64,000 nucleotides of DNA from contig JASANE010016297.1 in NCBI GenBank assembly GCA_030248225.1, positions 1 through 64,000 on the forward strand, given 5' to 3'. Of this stretch, positions 612-40,269 are shown piece after piece (the stretch's first letter is position 1; every line of letters begins with the position of its first letter). Source of the stretch: Trileptium ribeirensis (taxonomy: Eukaryota > Nematoda > Enoplea > Enoplida > Thoracostomopsidae). The translations under genes and the position numbers were made by a program. The notes beneath the pieces were generated by a model, which did no database searches, had not been told where the DNA came from, and worked only from the letters and a program-made list of their open reading frames with translations.

Positions 612-3600
612 CTAAAAATTATAACTATACGTAGGATGTTTTGGTCAAACCAGTTTCAACATTTTACAAAACACAGACAAACTAAGCTAAATGCATTGTC
701 ATGATGTGCGACTAAACGTAAAAAGACACCACTGACCATCTTATTTTATTTTATAAAAATAAATTTATGTTGCTGTGCAGTTTCTAATCAGTCGAAAAGC
801 ACATTTTCTGTACATGAAAATAGTTTTTTGGTCGTGATGAAAGATGATTCCTAAATAATAAAGCTAGGAAATGTCGATGAGTTGTCGTTACCTGACAAAA
901 TTGCTAAGTCTGAGCTAGCAATGAACCAAATCGAATTTTCAATTTGTCCGTAACAATGAATGTGGATTCCATATCGGGTATAGTTTAGCTAGTGGGGTAT
1001 CTTAAGGTTAGCCACACATGACAACAAACAAAATGCAAATCATACCGCATCAGTGATTGTGTATTGTTAATATAGTAGGTTTAGCGGCTGATTTTAATAC
1101 AAAAATATGAAACATTTTAAATTATCCTTAATCGAAAAACGATCTTTAGTTTATTCGTTGGAAAATGGACATGATGAATCTTTAGCTTGTGGGCATGGAT
1201 TAGGATGTATATCTTGTGTTTCTGCAGCTATGCATCGCCTATTTAATATTTTTTAATTTTCAAGGCAGCAGCACTTACTTAGGCTCCAGATGTTAGCGCT
1301 GTCTCGAGCGCGTAGAACAATTATGGATCCGTTGCATGTCTATTATGCATAAAAAAAGAACCAGACATAAAAATCAGCAATTCTACATTTCGGTGTGTAC
1401 ACACAGATGCGTATAACATAATTCAGCAGCCCACAGACAATTTTACACCAGCTGAATAATTAGACTGTTAGGATTTGTCTACGTTTTAGCATCCCAGATG
1501 ATGAAAACATAGAAGCAGCCATTTTTCAACCTTTTCAGATCAGAGATAATAAGGACATACTAAAGGAAGCCATTTTTCAATCTCAAGATTCAATAAGATC
1601 ATAGGTGATCATGAAATGGCATGGGAGGCTTTTGCTGGCCTTTTACTGAGGTTGCATAGGGAAAAATATATAGTGAAACAAGATACACGCACTTATTATG
1701 TAAAGTTTGTCACCATCAATAGGTAATTTCGCTTCCGTCAATATCATGCTTTTAGTGCCACGTAATAATGCATACAAAATTATAGACCTGTATGACTAGT
1801 AATGTGTAAGAAACAAAGCCTATTCCAGTATAGATTTGAGTGCATGACGGGTTAACATACACTTTGGGACAATTCTTGCTAATATTGTAACTAGAAAACA
1901 AAATTCAAGTTTCATTACAGCGTTTAAATATTGCAACTCGCTGCGTCTAAGACGTTTATATATAATTACATATAGATCAACAGCCGCCATTCTAGATAAC
2001 TTCGGGTCTTTAATATATATTCGCTAACTTTTCGCAGCATGGCCGCGAGCCAAATCTCCAGGATTTCTTGTACTGGGCGCCATTCTTCAACACGAGTTCT
2101 CAGCGCTTCGAACTGCATAACTGTTGCTTCGCTGAAATCCGGGTATTCACTGTTTTGCGCAATCATGTTGCTGACATCGCTAGTTGTGTAACCTAAAAAA
2201 TTAAGACAAAGAGCTCTGAGTGAGAAACTACAAATTTTTTATTAACACGTCAATTGCAACTCTTTACTCAGTCATGACTTATCAAAACAGGTGTATATTT
2301 TGATGATAGAAATTGTCTTAGCAATAATCGCAAGCGAAATTTGCTGGAAATCTGGACCAGCAACCACATCAGTAAATTTCAACGAAGCTACAATCTATAT
2401 ATAATACAAAAAATGGAGGTAGATATATATTTATATTTATAGGTAGATATAGATTTATATCTATATTTGGATCCTGTGAATTTATATTATTAGCTTTGAG
2501 CAACCCTGCTGAGGCTGAAGAAGCTACAGATTTTTAGTTCGCGATCGGCAGGTGTGTTTTAACTCTCGACAGCGCAATAAGAATGCCTTTCATTGTGCAA
2601 TATTGAGTGAATTGCATCATATATGCAATATAGCCTAAAGAATTTCGCTTCGTTTCCAATTGCCTCGAGCAAAAAATGCGAAGCATGTAAACCTAAGTTT
2701 TTACAAGTTATTTCGTAAGATTCTTAAAATTACTGGTTTATCTGGCACTAAGAAAATTATTTACATTTTGCTCGAACAAATGTGATATAACGGCGAGAAA
2801 CTAGTATAATACTCAGCATATTTATCAACAAAACGCTGTTTACTGCCGTTCGTGATTATGTTGCACAAATGATACTTAATCTCATTATATACTCATTCAT
2901 ATTTGAGGCAATTTAAATTCACCGTTGGTGCAGTAATATCAAGCACTCAGAATTGCTTATGTTGTGATGCTATGTTCGAGTTCGAAAGTTTCGGATTTAG
3001 TACTTCCATGGAATCCAACTCTACAATACATACCGGGCCAAACAGGTTAATTTGAAAATACACCGCAGATCATTGAATAGCAGCATCGACTGCAACAAAC
3101 ATCCAGTGAGCGGAGTTCCTTCAAATAGCGATCAACTGGGAACATCCTTTTTTCCACCTGTTGGTCGCATAACTTTTTACAGGATGGATTTTCGCAATTT
3201 TATATTATTCGACGCGTTATGAAATGCAGTAATGTACCTTGCTTCGTATTGGCGCTCCTCACATGATTTGTTACTAAATTTTCACAAAACTGACACGAAT
3301 TGGAGGGACGATTTCGGCCATTATGGCTGACCCAACATTTTAGCTTACAAGTATTGCTAGAGACATCGGATCGAAAATTTTCTCATGCTATCATGAATAG
3401 CAACGGGACTTGTGTTAAGTATGTTTTGTCATACCATCAGTTTTCGAGGTATGAGCGACAGTTTATGAAATTCCCCTTAAAAACTTATATTACCCGACTA
3501 TTACTGCTATAGTGAGACTTTAATTACGCTCAGGGACACGAAATTGGAACGTCAAAATATTCATTATTTGTTTAATAAACATTTCGGCGTAGATTTGCAT

Positions 3601-6600
3601 TTTGCCGGAACCGCAGCCGCAACATAATTTTCGCCCGTATAGGGATTACTGTTACACCCCTAGATACAATATAAATATTTATTGCTGCAACTGCAAGAAA
3701 CCTGACGAACAAGAACGAGGGATTATATTGCTCGCAGATTTTTGTGCTACCACATTGCTTATGAGTTCATCACAAAACTGCTGATACAGCACAGAGGAAC
3801 AAAATTACATTGTAATAATACACAGATTTCTGAGCGGTGCAGAGATAAACTCTAATGTAGAGCAAATCCACAAATCACATACTGTAATTATAGCTCCCTA
3901 TTTTTGACGTTAGCCGCAGTCCAACACTATTAAAATCCGAAAACCTTTAAATCGACAGCTGTACAATCCGATGTAATCAGCAGACTAGTGAAAAGTTGCC
4001 GCAAAAATAATTATCGATTTGCTAAATCCCACGCAAACGAAATCATTATTTAGGATTGCTGCACCGAACCAACTTTAGACCCACCCGACAGAGAGGGACT
4101 CTTTAAATGAAAGTCCGACAGTTTTCACGTGTTGATACATCCAGACAAAATGCACCCTTACAGTAGTGCACATAATCAAGACTATGTATGTACCATAAGC
4201 AAAATATTAAGGTAATACATCGCGCCCAATCTAACTTCGTATTGCCATTGCAACTTAAGCCATTCATACAAACGCCATTTGTAAATACATATCCATACTA
4301 ATAAAATAATAACTGCATGACAATAATGCGTCAGTCAGTTTAGTTGTCCACAAATGTGGTTAGTCGAAACAGAATAGCGCAAATATTCGCCTTCAAATTT
4401 CTGTTCGTGTAAAAATTCGCCGTCATATTCCGGCAATAAACCATTCATAGTTTAGTCAGCGCGAATAGACGCACAGTGATTTAGGCGTAGGCATGCAGTT
4501 TCCGCTTCAGACTATTGAGTTTATAAAATGACTCCCTGAATGTGAGCGTGCTTTGAGATGCACAATTATGGAATAAAGAAACGCAAACAAACTCAGTTAA
4601 AAATTTTGAATTATCCCGTGAAACAGCATTCAAAAACAGCACCATCACATTCCTTCACTTGTCTAGATAAATAAAACCATGATTTATGTGTGGTAATCAG
4701 TTTTAAAATCGTTAAATGACTTCTTAAACGACAGAACAAGTATACGGATTTATAGCTGACTGATACAAAATTAAAAGTTTACACATACTTCTTTTAACAT
4801 CGATATTTTGTCCATTTTAATTGAAATTGTCACGCAATGTTGTTTATCTATCTGTGCACACAGCCCTACATGTTAGACTATCAAAAATTAATCGTGGTCG
4901 AAATTATCATACACGTGCTGTCACGTGTAGATGTGTCAAAACAATAAAATTATAATTAGAGCTGTATAATTGTAAAATACTTAGCAGACTGACCCAGTCT
5001 CATACGATGTCTTTTAAAGTGTTTGGCGAACGCAATGTATTGATCCGTCTCATTGTCACTGTCTTCAGTTTCACTATCGGCTTCACTTTCCAATACATTG
5101 TCGGCATAGCTCTGTTATAAACAGTACTTCAAAAATAAACAATTCAGTCTGTACATTTGGTGTAATATATATGGCAGTTACATATTTACAGAACAATTCA
5201 GTATCAATATGTAGACTAACCGTACCAAATATGTATGTGCATGTGCTGTATAACATATCCATTAATATTAAGCTACAAAAATTTATATCTATGTTACGCA
5301 GATCTCAGACGTTTTATTTACGACGGTTAAGTTTAGATGTATCTGTGCAATATACTTCAGAATTATTTGGAAAAGATAAGTCATCGAATCATGAATAAAC
5401 TTAAGATCAGGCCATGAGCGGAAGAAATATTGAATTTGGTTTGATTTTTAGCTAACTTCAAATCGGGAAAATCGAACATAGGTGTCGGAAAATCCACCGG
5501 TGCGTGGAGAGATCTTTGTTGGTTTCCGATTTACAGGGAAAGTCTGTCTGATGATTATCAACTTTGTTCTGAATTTTTCTCTATTTGCAAACAAAATTAA
5601 CATAATCATATCGGCGCAAACAAATCGGTACACCTGTAAGTAAAAAGTTGGCACATGGTTTTGGATCACGCAGCGCAAAATTTTTCACGGATTCATAAAT
5701 TGGTACCGCCATGTGGTAAAATCGAGGCTTCTAAATCGAAAAATAATATAAACGTAGCGCAATTCCGAGAATTCGTTGGAAGACGCTTTTACATCATGAC
5801 TATACGTAATGAGTGCAATTTATGATAAGATTGTACGTCAGGTTGATACCTAAAAGTAGACCAGATATATATTTCACTTTGTTACCACTCGATAATTGAG
5901 ATAGCAGATGTGACTTTCTTAGAATTCGAAGGGGATCGAGAGGCTCAATTTCGGACTGTTATGAACAGTAATGTATGCCAGAGATCTTAGGCTTCCTCTC
6001 ACACCTCTTTTCACTTTGAAGACTCTAACTAGGATCTGAGAATAAGCGAATATATTTGGAGCAAATTTTACGTTGAGCCGGACTCATTTTATGAGTGTAA
6101 TCTCCATTTGGCTGACTATACTAAGGTGTTACTAATTTCAATTTGTAACAGCGTGAAATGTAAAAAAAATTTAACTCCCGATCAGGGAATAACCGGAACC
6201 GAAATTTACCGGAACCGGAACCAGCAACCGGAACCGTCCATTTAAACCGGATCCGGAACCGGAACCGGAACCGGAACCTGGTCTTCGACATTTATATATA
6301 GTAAAAGATATGAAGGAAGAAATTAAGGTATAGTCGACTTAAAATGCATTAAAAATAACTTACATTAAACTTAATATATTGCCATGACATTATTGCCGTT
6401 CTGAAACTTTAAAGAGACTGAGGAAACTAATAATGTTTATTTATCGATCAATATGTCGTTTTATTGGACACCCAGAGCAAAAAATGCCTTCTACTATACA
6501 CCCTTGCGTATACTGCGTCAAATTGAATGTGCTTACAACGCATAGAGCGAAGAATAAACGCTTTCGCTCTGTCCCAATTCGCCTCCCTTTACTACACATA

Positions 6601-37200: not shown

Positions 37201-37864
37201 CCAGAACATTAGAAGGTTAGTGGGCGGGGGGCTACACTTCAGGTCGGGGGCTACACCTTCCTACAACATATGTACATTGCTTGAAACTTTAGCTACTTTT
37301 AGAGATTCTAGATTTATTTTAACACGCTGCTGCTGTAAAACAAAAACAATTGATCTATGATGAGCTTACATTTAGGTGATGATACCAAGGACAATGCGAA
37401 AAATAGATGTGCTGGCTGAAAGAAGGGTTCCCTAGCTACCCACTTAACAGCACGGCCTCATATCATGGTGCAATGATGATGAACTTATATACTAATATGG
37501 TTCATGCGACCTTCGGTTTCTTTTATTATACATGCGGTCAGGGGGCTACATTTTCATTAAAAAATTTTTAATACATGTGTCGATTTTAGTGGGCGTTACT
37601 GTTTCTAACCGGACTATTGTAAGACTGTATATGTTAAGTTTGGCTTACTTAAATTTCATTTTCATCAGGTCGGGGGAGGGGCTACATTTTGCATACCCCA
37701 TTTTTGGCACTAAATAACCTTCGACCTCATAATCAAACAACACATGAAAGACGCTGATATTCTTTTTCTCAATACCACCTGTACTGATTACGATTACCGT
37801 TATAGCATTTTTGGCGCTAGTGCAGTTTGATGTTATTTATCAGCGTATGCAAGCTGCCAGATTT

Positions 37865-37901
37865 CTGCCGTGCCGGGGAAGAACAGCGCATGTCCACTTT
37901 T
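37865..37901 (+). repeat. Left terminal inverted repeat of the DUF7869-like transposon
   Basis: It begins CTGCCGTGCCGGGGAAGAAC and ends ATGTCCACTTTT. It pairs with 39851-39887 in reverse, with a C/T difference in the GCGCATG/GCGTATG portion. Confidence 0.92.
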
Positions 37902-38076
37902 CAAGTTTACGAGAAAATCGACTTTTTAGTTTGCAAAGCTACTACTGGATGCACAAGCGTCTGACATGCATGAGTTTTTCAGTGATCAAAGAGCTAAGTA
38001 TCTTCTTAGCACGCACAAACTTGTGGGGACGTACGCATCATATGGACCCCACGGCGGGCACCAAAACTGACCCACC

Positions 38077-38262
38077 TGGACATACGCTATTTTATCCAGT
38101 AGTTTTTTTGTTAGAATAAGCACGTATGTCCACTCAGTTTTATGGAGATACGCGTTTATGTAGCTGTACTGTGTAAAAATAGCGTATCTCCACATGAAAA
38201 AAAACGTATGTCCGGACATATGTGTTTCACAAACCGAACGACTCTGAAACATGGACATACGC
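38077..38262. repeat. Subterminal repeat block, left side
   Basis: About seven copies of TGGACATACGC in either orientation, two with GAGATACG in place of GACATACG. One pair is fused back to back around 38204-38222 as a palindrome (CGTATGTCCGGACATATG). Each copy resembles the inner half of the terminal repeat, including the CTGTTTT that often follows. Such clusters serve as transposase binding sites in several superfamilies; that role here is inference. Confidence 0.85.
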
Positions 38263-38381
38263 TGTTTTGATAGTTAGAATTTCTTTGTATTTTAAAAAAT
38301 TCGGCCACAATTCTGCCAGTTTACTTAAATTCAATTTATGTTAACATTCACCTTTGGCACTTTAATCCGCAATATCGATAG

Positions 38382-39371
38382 TCATAAGGTATCGTCATCT
38401 TCAGAACCATCGTCGTCACGCAAAGGCAGTTCGTTCCAAAATCGTTTGGCTTCTTCTTCCATAAATCGTGTTAGGTTCTTCAGTATCATCGTTTTCCTGT
38501 GTTTGGCTATGCCTTGAGGTTTTTCTCTTGCCTCCGGCAATGATTTAGGCGCTTTAGTGGACATAAATGTATACTCTTCGAAGTTCGCTTCTTTTTGTTG
38601 CATCTGTTTGGCATAGTACAGCTGAAATTTTCTACCACGGCGGAATTGCACGCATACCATATCTTTCAGAAGAGGTCGATCTGCAGCGTTCATTTGCTTC
38701 TTAGTGCAGTTATTTTTGAATATGAAGCATTCCGATACTTTTAGACAGTGCGTTTTGATATTACCGCTGACGGCACTACTCACCGCTTGCACAAGCTGCT
38801 GGAAATCTTGAACTTTGTTCATTTGTTTCATCCGCAGCTCTACTCCGTGGTGAACGGCATCCGCGGACATAAAAGTATGTCCGGGTTCTAGGTAATTCAG
38901 TGTTATTTTCTCCGCAGCAATTTCGGAAGTGTTAACGGCCCAAGCCATCATGGAAAACAAAACCCAGTTTTTGTTTTGGGCACTACAATTATCCAACCAG
39001 AAAACTAGTTGCTTTGCCTTATTGTTACATACCATAAATTGCCAGAAAGCACTGGCTATATCGGACGCTGACCGCCCTGTAATAGCTTCGTGCCACAGTA
39101 CAGCTAAAGTTTGATGGCCAATTTCAGAATGTTGTGATCCAAGAAGAGCAAAAGTTTCGTTGTATGCAATCAAACGGGGAGTGAATAAACAGCTTTTAAT
39201 TCCGGGAAGCCTAGGTAACATAACTATTTTCTGAAGATCCGCTGAAACGCGAATGATTTTTGGATCCTGTTCGGCGTTTTTGTCAACGGTATATGCTTCA
39301 CGAGCAATACGAGAACGTAGTACGTGGTCATTGTTAGCAACACATAAATCACAATCAATGTTGTTAAATTG
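38382..39371 (-). CDS. DUF7869-like protein, probable transposase, N-terminally incomplete
   Basis: The frame is open for 329 codons from just below a stop at 39372-39374; the first ATG is at 39221, 50 codons in. Upstream of that ATG the frame already reads family-like sequence: a Cys-x2-Cys (DCDLC) and RVSADLQKIVMLPRLPG. Further on are WLDNCSAQNKNW and LEPGHTFMSADAVHHGVE, whose two Asp residues sit where an RNase H-like fold would place catalytic acids. These motifs are typical of the DUF7869 proteins that occur in many copies in invertebrate genomes. The C terminus is Lys-rich and ends DDDGSEDDDTL. Another frame near 39460-39490 reads KRPSEQC, which resembles the Cys-rich start of the family, so the true start has been lost by frameshift or lies across an intron. 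Activity is doubtful; family assignment is from memory of motifs. Confidence 0.75.
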   Translation of the reverse strand, partial: QFNNIDCDLCVANNDHVLRSRIAREAYTVDKNAEQDPKIIRVSADLQKIVMLPRLPGIKSCLFTPRLIAYNETFALLGSQHSEIGHQTLAVLWHEAITGRSASDIASAFWQFMVCNNKAKQLVFWLDNCSAQNKNWVLFSMMAWAVNTSEIAAEKITLNYLEPGHTFMSADAVHHGVELRMKQMNKVQDFQQLVQAVSSAVSGNIKTHCLKVSECFIFKNNCTKKQMNAADRPLLKDMVCVQFRRGRKFQLYYAKQMQQKEANFEEYTFMSTKAPKSLPEAREKPQGIAKHRKTMILKNLTRFMEEEAKRFWNELPLRDDDGSEDDDTL

Positions 39372-39537
39372 TTAAAAAATCAAGCAATAATTGATATAAA
39401 TGCTTGTCGTATTGTAGCTAAACATATTGGACTACGATGCGTTCAACTTGTATTTATATTGCAGCACTGTTCGGAAGGTCTTTTTCTTGCAATTATTTAG
39501 CCCTAAAACAGGGAATAACTAGGAAGTTAAGCAGCGA

Positions 39538-39790
39538 ATGTCCATAGCGTATGTCCGTGGACATACACTGTTTCTAGTGTTACCGAGTGAAAATGACGTA
39601 TGTCCACGGACATACGCCGATTTTGATACTTACCGAGAAAGAACTGTGTATGTCCATTGCAAAATAGCGTATGTCCACAATTTTTGGACATACGTTGTTT
39701 TTGTCTCCTGGGACGATGGACATACGTGCTTTCTACCAAAATTTAGCCGCATATATCTCTTTACTGGTTGGACATACGTAAAAACGGACT
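39538..39790. repeat. Subterminal repeat block, right side
   Basis: About ten copies of the same motif, with three head-to-head or near palindromic pairs: GTATGTCCGTGGACATAC (39550), GTATGTCCACGGACATAC (39599) and a wider one near 39668-39694. Density is higher than on the left. Confidence 0.88.
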
Positions 39791-39850
39791 GCACTACGCG
39801 ATTCTACGTGAAATTCTGGTCCAGATAGTGCTAATAACTCGATTTCGTCA

Positions 39851-39887
39851 AAAAGTGGACATACGCTGTTCTTCCCCGGCACGGCAG
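39851..39887 (-). repeat. Right terminal inverted repeat of the DUF7869-like transposon
   Basis: On the plus strand it reads AAAAGTGGACATACGCTGTT and ends CCCCGGCACGGCAG. ATTT follows at once and matches the four bases before the left repeat. Confidence 0.92.
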
Positions 39888-40269
39888 ATTTGACCTTGGT
39901 CGGGGGGCTATATCACGAAAAAAAATTTCACAAGCTTGACGTCAGTTTCAGTATCGATGCTTACTCCCAATTTTATCTAATTTTAAAAAAAATTAGCAAA
40001 TACCAAAGGATCACACTGAAAGAAAACACATATATGTATCACGTGCTAGAGATACGGCGAACGTTTATAGTGGGACATGTGTTTTGACTTCATTTGGCCA
40101 ACCCGGTTTGAAGGCCTCTGGCTCCAGCTATGTTAGAGGTACAGAGGTCGACACCTTATTATGACCGTGGGACATACTATTACTACATCTCACAGCGATA
40201 TTAAATTTCCTTCCAAAATACTGGTGGGATGGGCCAAAAAGTGCCGCTGTAGCCCCCCCCCCCGACTAA

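Follow-up and report, generated by a model that had tools for sequence, protein, structure and literature searches.

Among described DNA transposons, those of the Sola superfamily are probably the closest relatives of the element reported here. In the passages of the literature consulted for this comparison, Sola elements encode a three-aspartate (DDD) transposase, generate 4-bp target-site duplications, mostly measure 2-9 kb, carry inverted repeats of 11-1124 bp and occur in bacteria and metazoans (PMC10741241); the duplications of Sola2 are AT-rich and read AWWT (PMC3627910), and the superfamily has been placed in the RNase H1-containing clade E (PMC3985635). Here we describe a 2,023-bp element at positions 37865-39887 of a 64,000-nucleotide stretch of DNA (the window) from the nematode Trileptium ribeirensis (contig JASANE010016297.1), which retains the end of a gene for a protein with the domain DUF7869. 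We consider it highly probable that this is an internally deleted DUF7869 transposon, which duplicated ATTT on entering an interspersed repeat and was likely mobilised in trans by the DDD transposase of longer relatives, the family most likely belonging to Sola in the neighbourhood of Sola2.

The element is delimited by terminal inverted repeats of 37 bp (37865-37901 on the plus strand and 39851-39887 on the minus strand), which in a comparison of the two ends are alike at 36 of 37 positions (97%), and ATTT adjoins it on both outer sides (37861-37864 and 39888-39891); at the composition of the window, two random 4-mers would match with p = 0.0055. Inside the ends, four exact copies of the octamer GTATGTCC/GGACATAC lie on the left (38077-38265) and nine form an array on the right (39535-39780), with one more GTATGTCC in the right terminal repeat itself. 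Altogether, 15 of the 19 occurrences of GTATGTCC or its complement in the window fall within the element, leaving 4 outside it; 1.17 would be expected for the window as a whole. The first-pass annotation, made from the letters of this stretch, had proposed a bounded DNA transposon with 37-bp inverted repeats differing by one mismatch, clustered subterminal repeats and a 4-bp target duplication; the first two are borne out by these counts and the third by the unoccupied sites described below. An Rfam scan of the window gave no matches.

Probes for unoccupied sites were made by joining the flanks of a copy with one ATTT kept, and those of the window copy and of ten other copies were searched together. 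The window probe was covered across its junction by at least 40 uninterrupted repeat copies at 88-91% identity, which accounted for 40 of the 41 matches listed and nearly filled the scored list (40 of 3,247 candidates scored). The junction was intact, with a single ATTT, in all ten of the unoccupied repeats that were fetched. Since the joined flanks match an uninterrupted host repeat with one ATTT, the event can be read directly: the window element inserted into an interspersed host repeat and duplicated ATTT. This sequence, single at unoccupied sites and double at the element, is not the TA duplication of Tc1/mariner elements. The one further match listed (73% identity) crosses the junction of probe C14730; the remaining nine probes had no row among the matches listed, which the abundant repeat nearly filled. 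The repeat that hosts the element (seen in its flanks and in L076-L086) is itself abundant, with at least 40 further copies at about 90% identity and GTAGCCCCCCGACC-like motifs.

Between the ends lies a stop-to-stop frame of 329 codons (P0121, 38385-39371, minus strand), which matches the Pfam family PF25273 (DUF7869) at 36.9 bits (E 3.7e-9; curated cut-off 26 bits), no unrelated non-mobile Pfam family scoring above cut-off; the DUF7869 likeness recognised at first pass thus stands. Five proteins compared with NCBIfam gave nothing near any cut-off. The first ATG of the frame is residue 51, and the ATG-started product of 279 residues (38382-39221, minus strand), which carries DUF7869, therefore lacks the first conserved aspartate, D45. 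The single long frame noted earlier is indeed open for 329 codons but is not a complete gene, being the 3′ remnant of a longer, transposase-type one: from 39360 downwards it is homologous to the end part of a 1,142-codon frame in L017 (contig C18548), a 5,263-bp relative within this genome that shares its ends with the window copy and is likewise flanked by ATTT.

In L017 the single frame opens with a PWWP domain and continues through a 29-residue tandem repeat and a cysteine motif into DUF7869. When the window copy was compared with L017 by BLAST, the two matched in blocks of 522 bp (98.1%), 935 bp (99.5%) and 94 bp (100%), and about 3.7 kb of L017 between the first two blocks was missing from the window copy, with the deletion junction at 39360-39366. 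The window element is an internally deleted derivative of a longer transposon; conversely, about 466 bp of the window copy, as well as its last codons, are missing from L017. An open frame of 329 codons in a non-autonomous copy could also be a host or domesticated gene whose inverted repeats are incidental, yet the unoccupied sites, the dispersed copies sharing these ends and the missing 5′ part of the gene all speak against a host gene. The first and last of these rule it out for the window copy, and we regard it as exceedingly improbable. Two tandem arrays were also observed in L017: one of 236-bp units (1278-2398, 4.8 copies) that extends into the beginning of the long frame and whose units repeat the first PWWP codons, and an in-frame one of 87-bp units (2854-3604, 8.6 copies) that encodes the 29-residue repeat between PWWP and DUF7869.

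A different deletion junction, identified by BLAST, is common to six loci (L009, L010, L011, L012, L013 and L015), and its sequence was recovered in five of them. A common junction would arise if a form already deleted went on to multiply, which suggests that these loci represent a non-autonomous subfamily.

A search of the host assembly (687 Mb in 20,229 contigs) with the element ends recovered dispersed copies that share these ends. The assembly holds at least 148 DUF7869 matches, most of them without bounded ends. Comparing copies with one another delimited two more families: family A, whose copies measure 4,191-4,193 bp in three cases and 3,382 bp in a fourth, and family B, with copies of 4,413, 4,448 and 2,782 bp. 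All four family A copies have matching flanks (AATT three times and ATAT), as do all three family B copies (AATT twice and AGTT). At L049 the boundary initially chosen gave no duplication; shifted to GAAG, the start it has in common with family A, it gave AATT. AATT is palindromic; it is the ATAT and AGTT copies that fix the boundary. Four of the six two-ended copies of the window family are likewise flanked by duplications (ATTT, ATTT, TGTT and TATG). The count took two-ended copies, which among L009-L028 are L009, L011, L013, L015 and L017, and left aside L031/L033 (whose ends were unresolved), L029/L030, L037 and other families with at most one end. In total, 12 of 14 two-ended host copies carry 4-bp duplications, none of the 12 being the TTAA of piggyBac and Kolobok; the flank pattern expected of a 4-bp duplication is therefore present in 12 but absent in 2, L011 and L013, two window-family copies without matching 4-bp flanks that tell against a duplicating transposon. 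Copies of the window family have the same ends, but the inverted repeats differ in other DUF7869 families, and the majority of the 148 matches are unbounded. The proposal that DUF7869 is tied to a concrete mobile unit is nevertheless upheld by the ends, the duplications and the unoccupied sites.

A structural model of DUF7869 (predicted local distance difference test score, pLDDT, of 93) is similar in fold to the Mos1/SETMAR transposase and to retroviral integrase, in line with the earlier suggestion of an RNase H-like protein, here as a predicted transposase fold. Three aspartates on the minus strand are predicted to form the catalytic site. D45 (39237-39239), upstream of the first ATG and within model strand 39-46, is present in at least 90% of 96 aligned rows and invariant in a second alignment of 11 rows, while D127 (38991-38993), after model strand 121-126, and D171 (38859-38861), near the start of a model helix, are invariant in both. 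A check for a third acidic residue thus found D171; in the 11-row alignment, which spans bacteria to animals, all three aspartates (spaced as DD43D) are invariant, and E178 is not. The DDD triad is accordingly a predicted one, assigned from conservation and the modelled fold. Foldseek gave no matches below E 0.001 in the PDB, and a PDB comparison by sequence without fold gave no transposase match at E up to 1. No match below E 0.001 was found in BFVD, and none of five pattern matches in viral contigs proved to be a relative. A retroviral origin was set aside, the likeness to integrase being one of fold only and the element ending in inverted, not direct, repeats. The proteins also differ from Tc1/mariner transposases (Mos1, SETMAR) in the 4-bp rather than TA duplication, the DD43D spacing and the cysteine/histidine motifs that precede the core, and no mariner family in Pfam matched DUF7869 proteins above cut-off.

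Relatives were also found outside nematodes. A scan of a genome collection confirmed two bacterial relatives among 55 pattern matches, both above the DUF7869 cut-off. In Desulfocicer vacuolatum (L066:3692-5815), one gene of 657 residues lies between perfect 43-bp inverted repeats, at whose ends no 4-bp duplication was seen. In Candidatus Thiomargarita nelsonii (L067:1623-3686), a split gene of two frames is enclosed by 45-bp repeats that are 91% identical; with the boundary placed inside this repeat pair, the inner GGGACTGG ends are each flanked by ATTT. Such genes are rare in bacteria (in the two phyla concerned, 1 genome in 395 and 1 in 398, each being the seed). The compact Desulfocicer locus may offer a minimal bacterial model of the family. 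Animal relatives occur in beetles, butterflies and moths, aphids, Hydra and Astyanax. From the predicted fold, the invariant aspartates, the inverted repeats of other families and of bacteria, and the 4-bp duplications, we therefore conclude that DUF7869 very likely represents a transposase domain, and that the gene whose end is retained in the window likely encodes a transposase.

How these elements should be classified was judged by published hallmarks, not by sequence. Set beside the consulted descriptions, they resemble Sola in their 4-bp duplications (12 of 14 two-ended host copies), in the DDD triad D45, D127 and D171 as assigned from conservation and predicted fold, and in their 37-bp ends and size, from 2.0 kb in the window copy to 5.3 kb in L017; families A and B, with full copies of 4.2-4.4 kb and shorter ones of 3.4 and 2.8 kb, fall within the same range. 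They resemble it further in being present in both bacteria and animals, although rare in the former. Because AT-rich 4-bp duplications, triad, size and occurrence in bacteria and animals match these descriptions, the DUF7869 elements probably belong to Sola and, within it, most likely lie near Sola2. Several features weigh against this assignment and would favour a superfamily of its own, Sola-like in no more than its 4-bp duplications and DDD triad. The likeness rests on descriptions and involved no comparison with a reference Sola sequence; the ends begin differently, with CTGCCG in the window family and GAAG in families A and B; and the AWWT pattern of Sola2 fits 9 of the 12 host duplications, yet no more than two of the four in the window family, TGTT and TATG falling outside it. 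The host-genome elements also depart from the Sola2 description, as far as the consulted passages give it, in their N-terminal PWWP and their arrays of subterminal octamers. Finally, no paper with the term DUF7869 was found in the literature searched, an absence that may be due simply to when the Pfam entry was created. Against these points stands the agreement of the hallmarks just listed, and we consider a separate superfamily unlikely, as is the first-pass suggestion of a superfamily without a good description.

The PWWP domain was seen only in longer relatives and is absent from the window copy. It begins the L017 frame (E 3.2e-6), and a genome search with it gave matches where other DUF7869 elements begin. 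PWWP and DUF7869 are joined in one frame in three families (L017, 1,142 codons; family A, 879; C9325, 922), and in family B the PWWP occupies a separate frame of 152 residues. Pfam scores were 28.0 bits for L017, 34.3 for family A, 34.6 for C9325, 31.2 for family B and 27.2 for L070, against a cut-off of 25.6, below which L071 fell (20.5). A profile built from six PWWP segments matches the PWWP domains of DNMT3B and NSD2/NSD3 in the PDB (best E 1.2e-10). Binding of methyl-lysine by a complete aromatic cage is uncertain, because the loop that precedes WP has one residue fewer than its counterpart in DNMT3B.

The PWWP could instead be a separate host gene or lie near DUF7869 by chance, as might be argued from the separate frame of family B, from the 96 of 139 PWWP-like rows that lie away from the 6-kb zone upstream of a listed DUF7869 match, and from database homologs: at an E limit of 1, the six-segment profile detected none among 346 proteins (the window frame plus 345 homologs), many homologs being partial or single-frame, and Pfam found no PWWP in ten long homologs. 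These observations count against a PWWP-bearing transposase. However, an uninterrupted frame unites the two domains in three families, and position is strongly biased by strand: of the 148 DUF7869 matches, 39 have a same-strand PWWP at most 6 kb upstream, 2 have one downstream and none has one on the other strand (139 of 140 PWWP rows used). Coincidental proximity or a separate host gene therefore seems to us quite improbable. Some of the 96 rows lying elsewhere may be host genes, and others may be elements whose DUF7869 part went unscored.

From the anatomy of the element and established knowledge of DDE transposases, a mechanism can be proposed. A DDD transposase supplied by longer relatives would move the window copy in trans, binding the GTATGTCC subterminal array and the inverted repeats, pairing the ends and cutting the element out. 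The 3′ ends would then be joined to the two strands of the target at positions 4 bp apart, and repair of the resulting gaps would produce the 4-bp duplication; incomplete repair after excision may give rise to internal deletions such as that of the window copy. In many host-genome relatives, the N-terminal PWWP might tether the transposase to nucleosomes. In human immunodeficiency virus (HIV), tethering to nucleosomes is provided by the PWWP of LEDGF/p75 (PMC4176367); whereas HIV borrows this host protein, here a PWWP of putative role sits in the frame of the transposase. It is a tentative idea, and one we hold to be possible rather than probable, that an animal lineage built a PWWP reader into its own DDD transposase, kin to the DUF7869 transposons of a few bacteria, and so steered insertion towards chromatin methylated at lysine 36 of histone H3 (H3K36). 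Such target choice would be unusual for a transposase, and none of the literature titles searched on PWWP was about a PWWP transposase. If true, the PWWP-DDD transposase would be a single-protein version of the borrowing of LEDGF/p75 by HIV and, should the PWWP steer integration, a natural case of chromatin-guided DNA transposition in a single protein chain. For the family as a whole, DUF7869 proteins, present in many copies in invertebrate genomes under a label of unknown function, are now tied to transposition by ends, target duplications and unoccupied sites, and annotated DUF7869 'genes' thereby become recognisable as parts of transposons.
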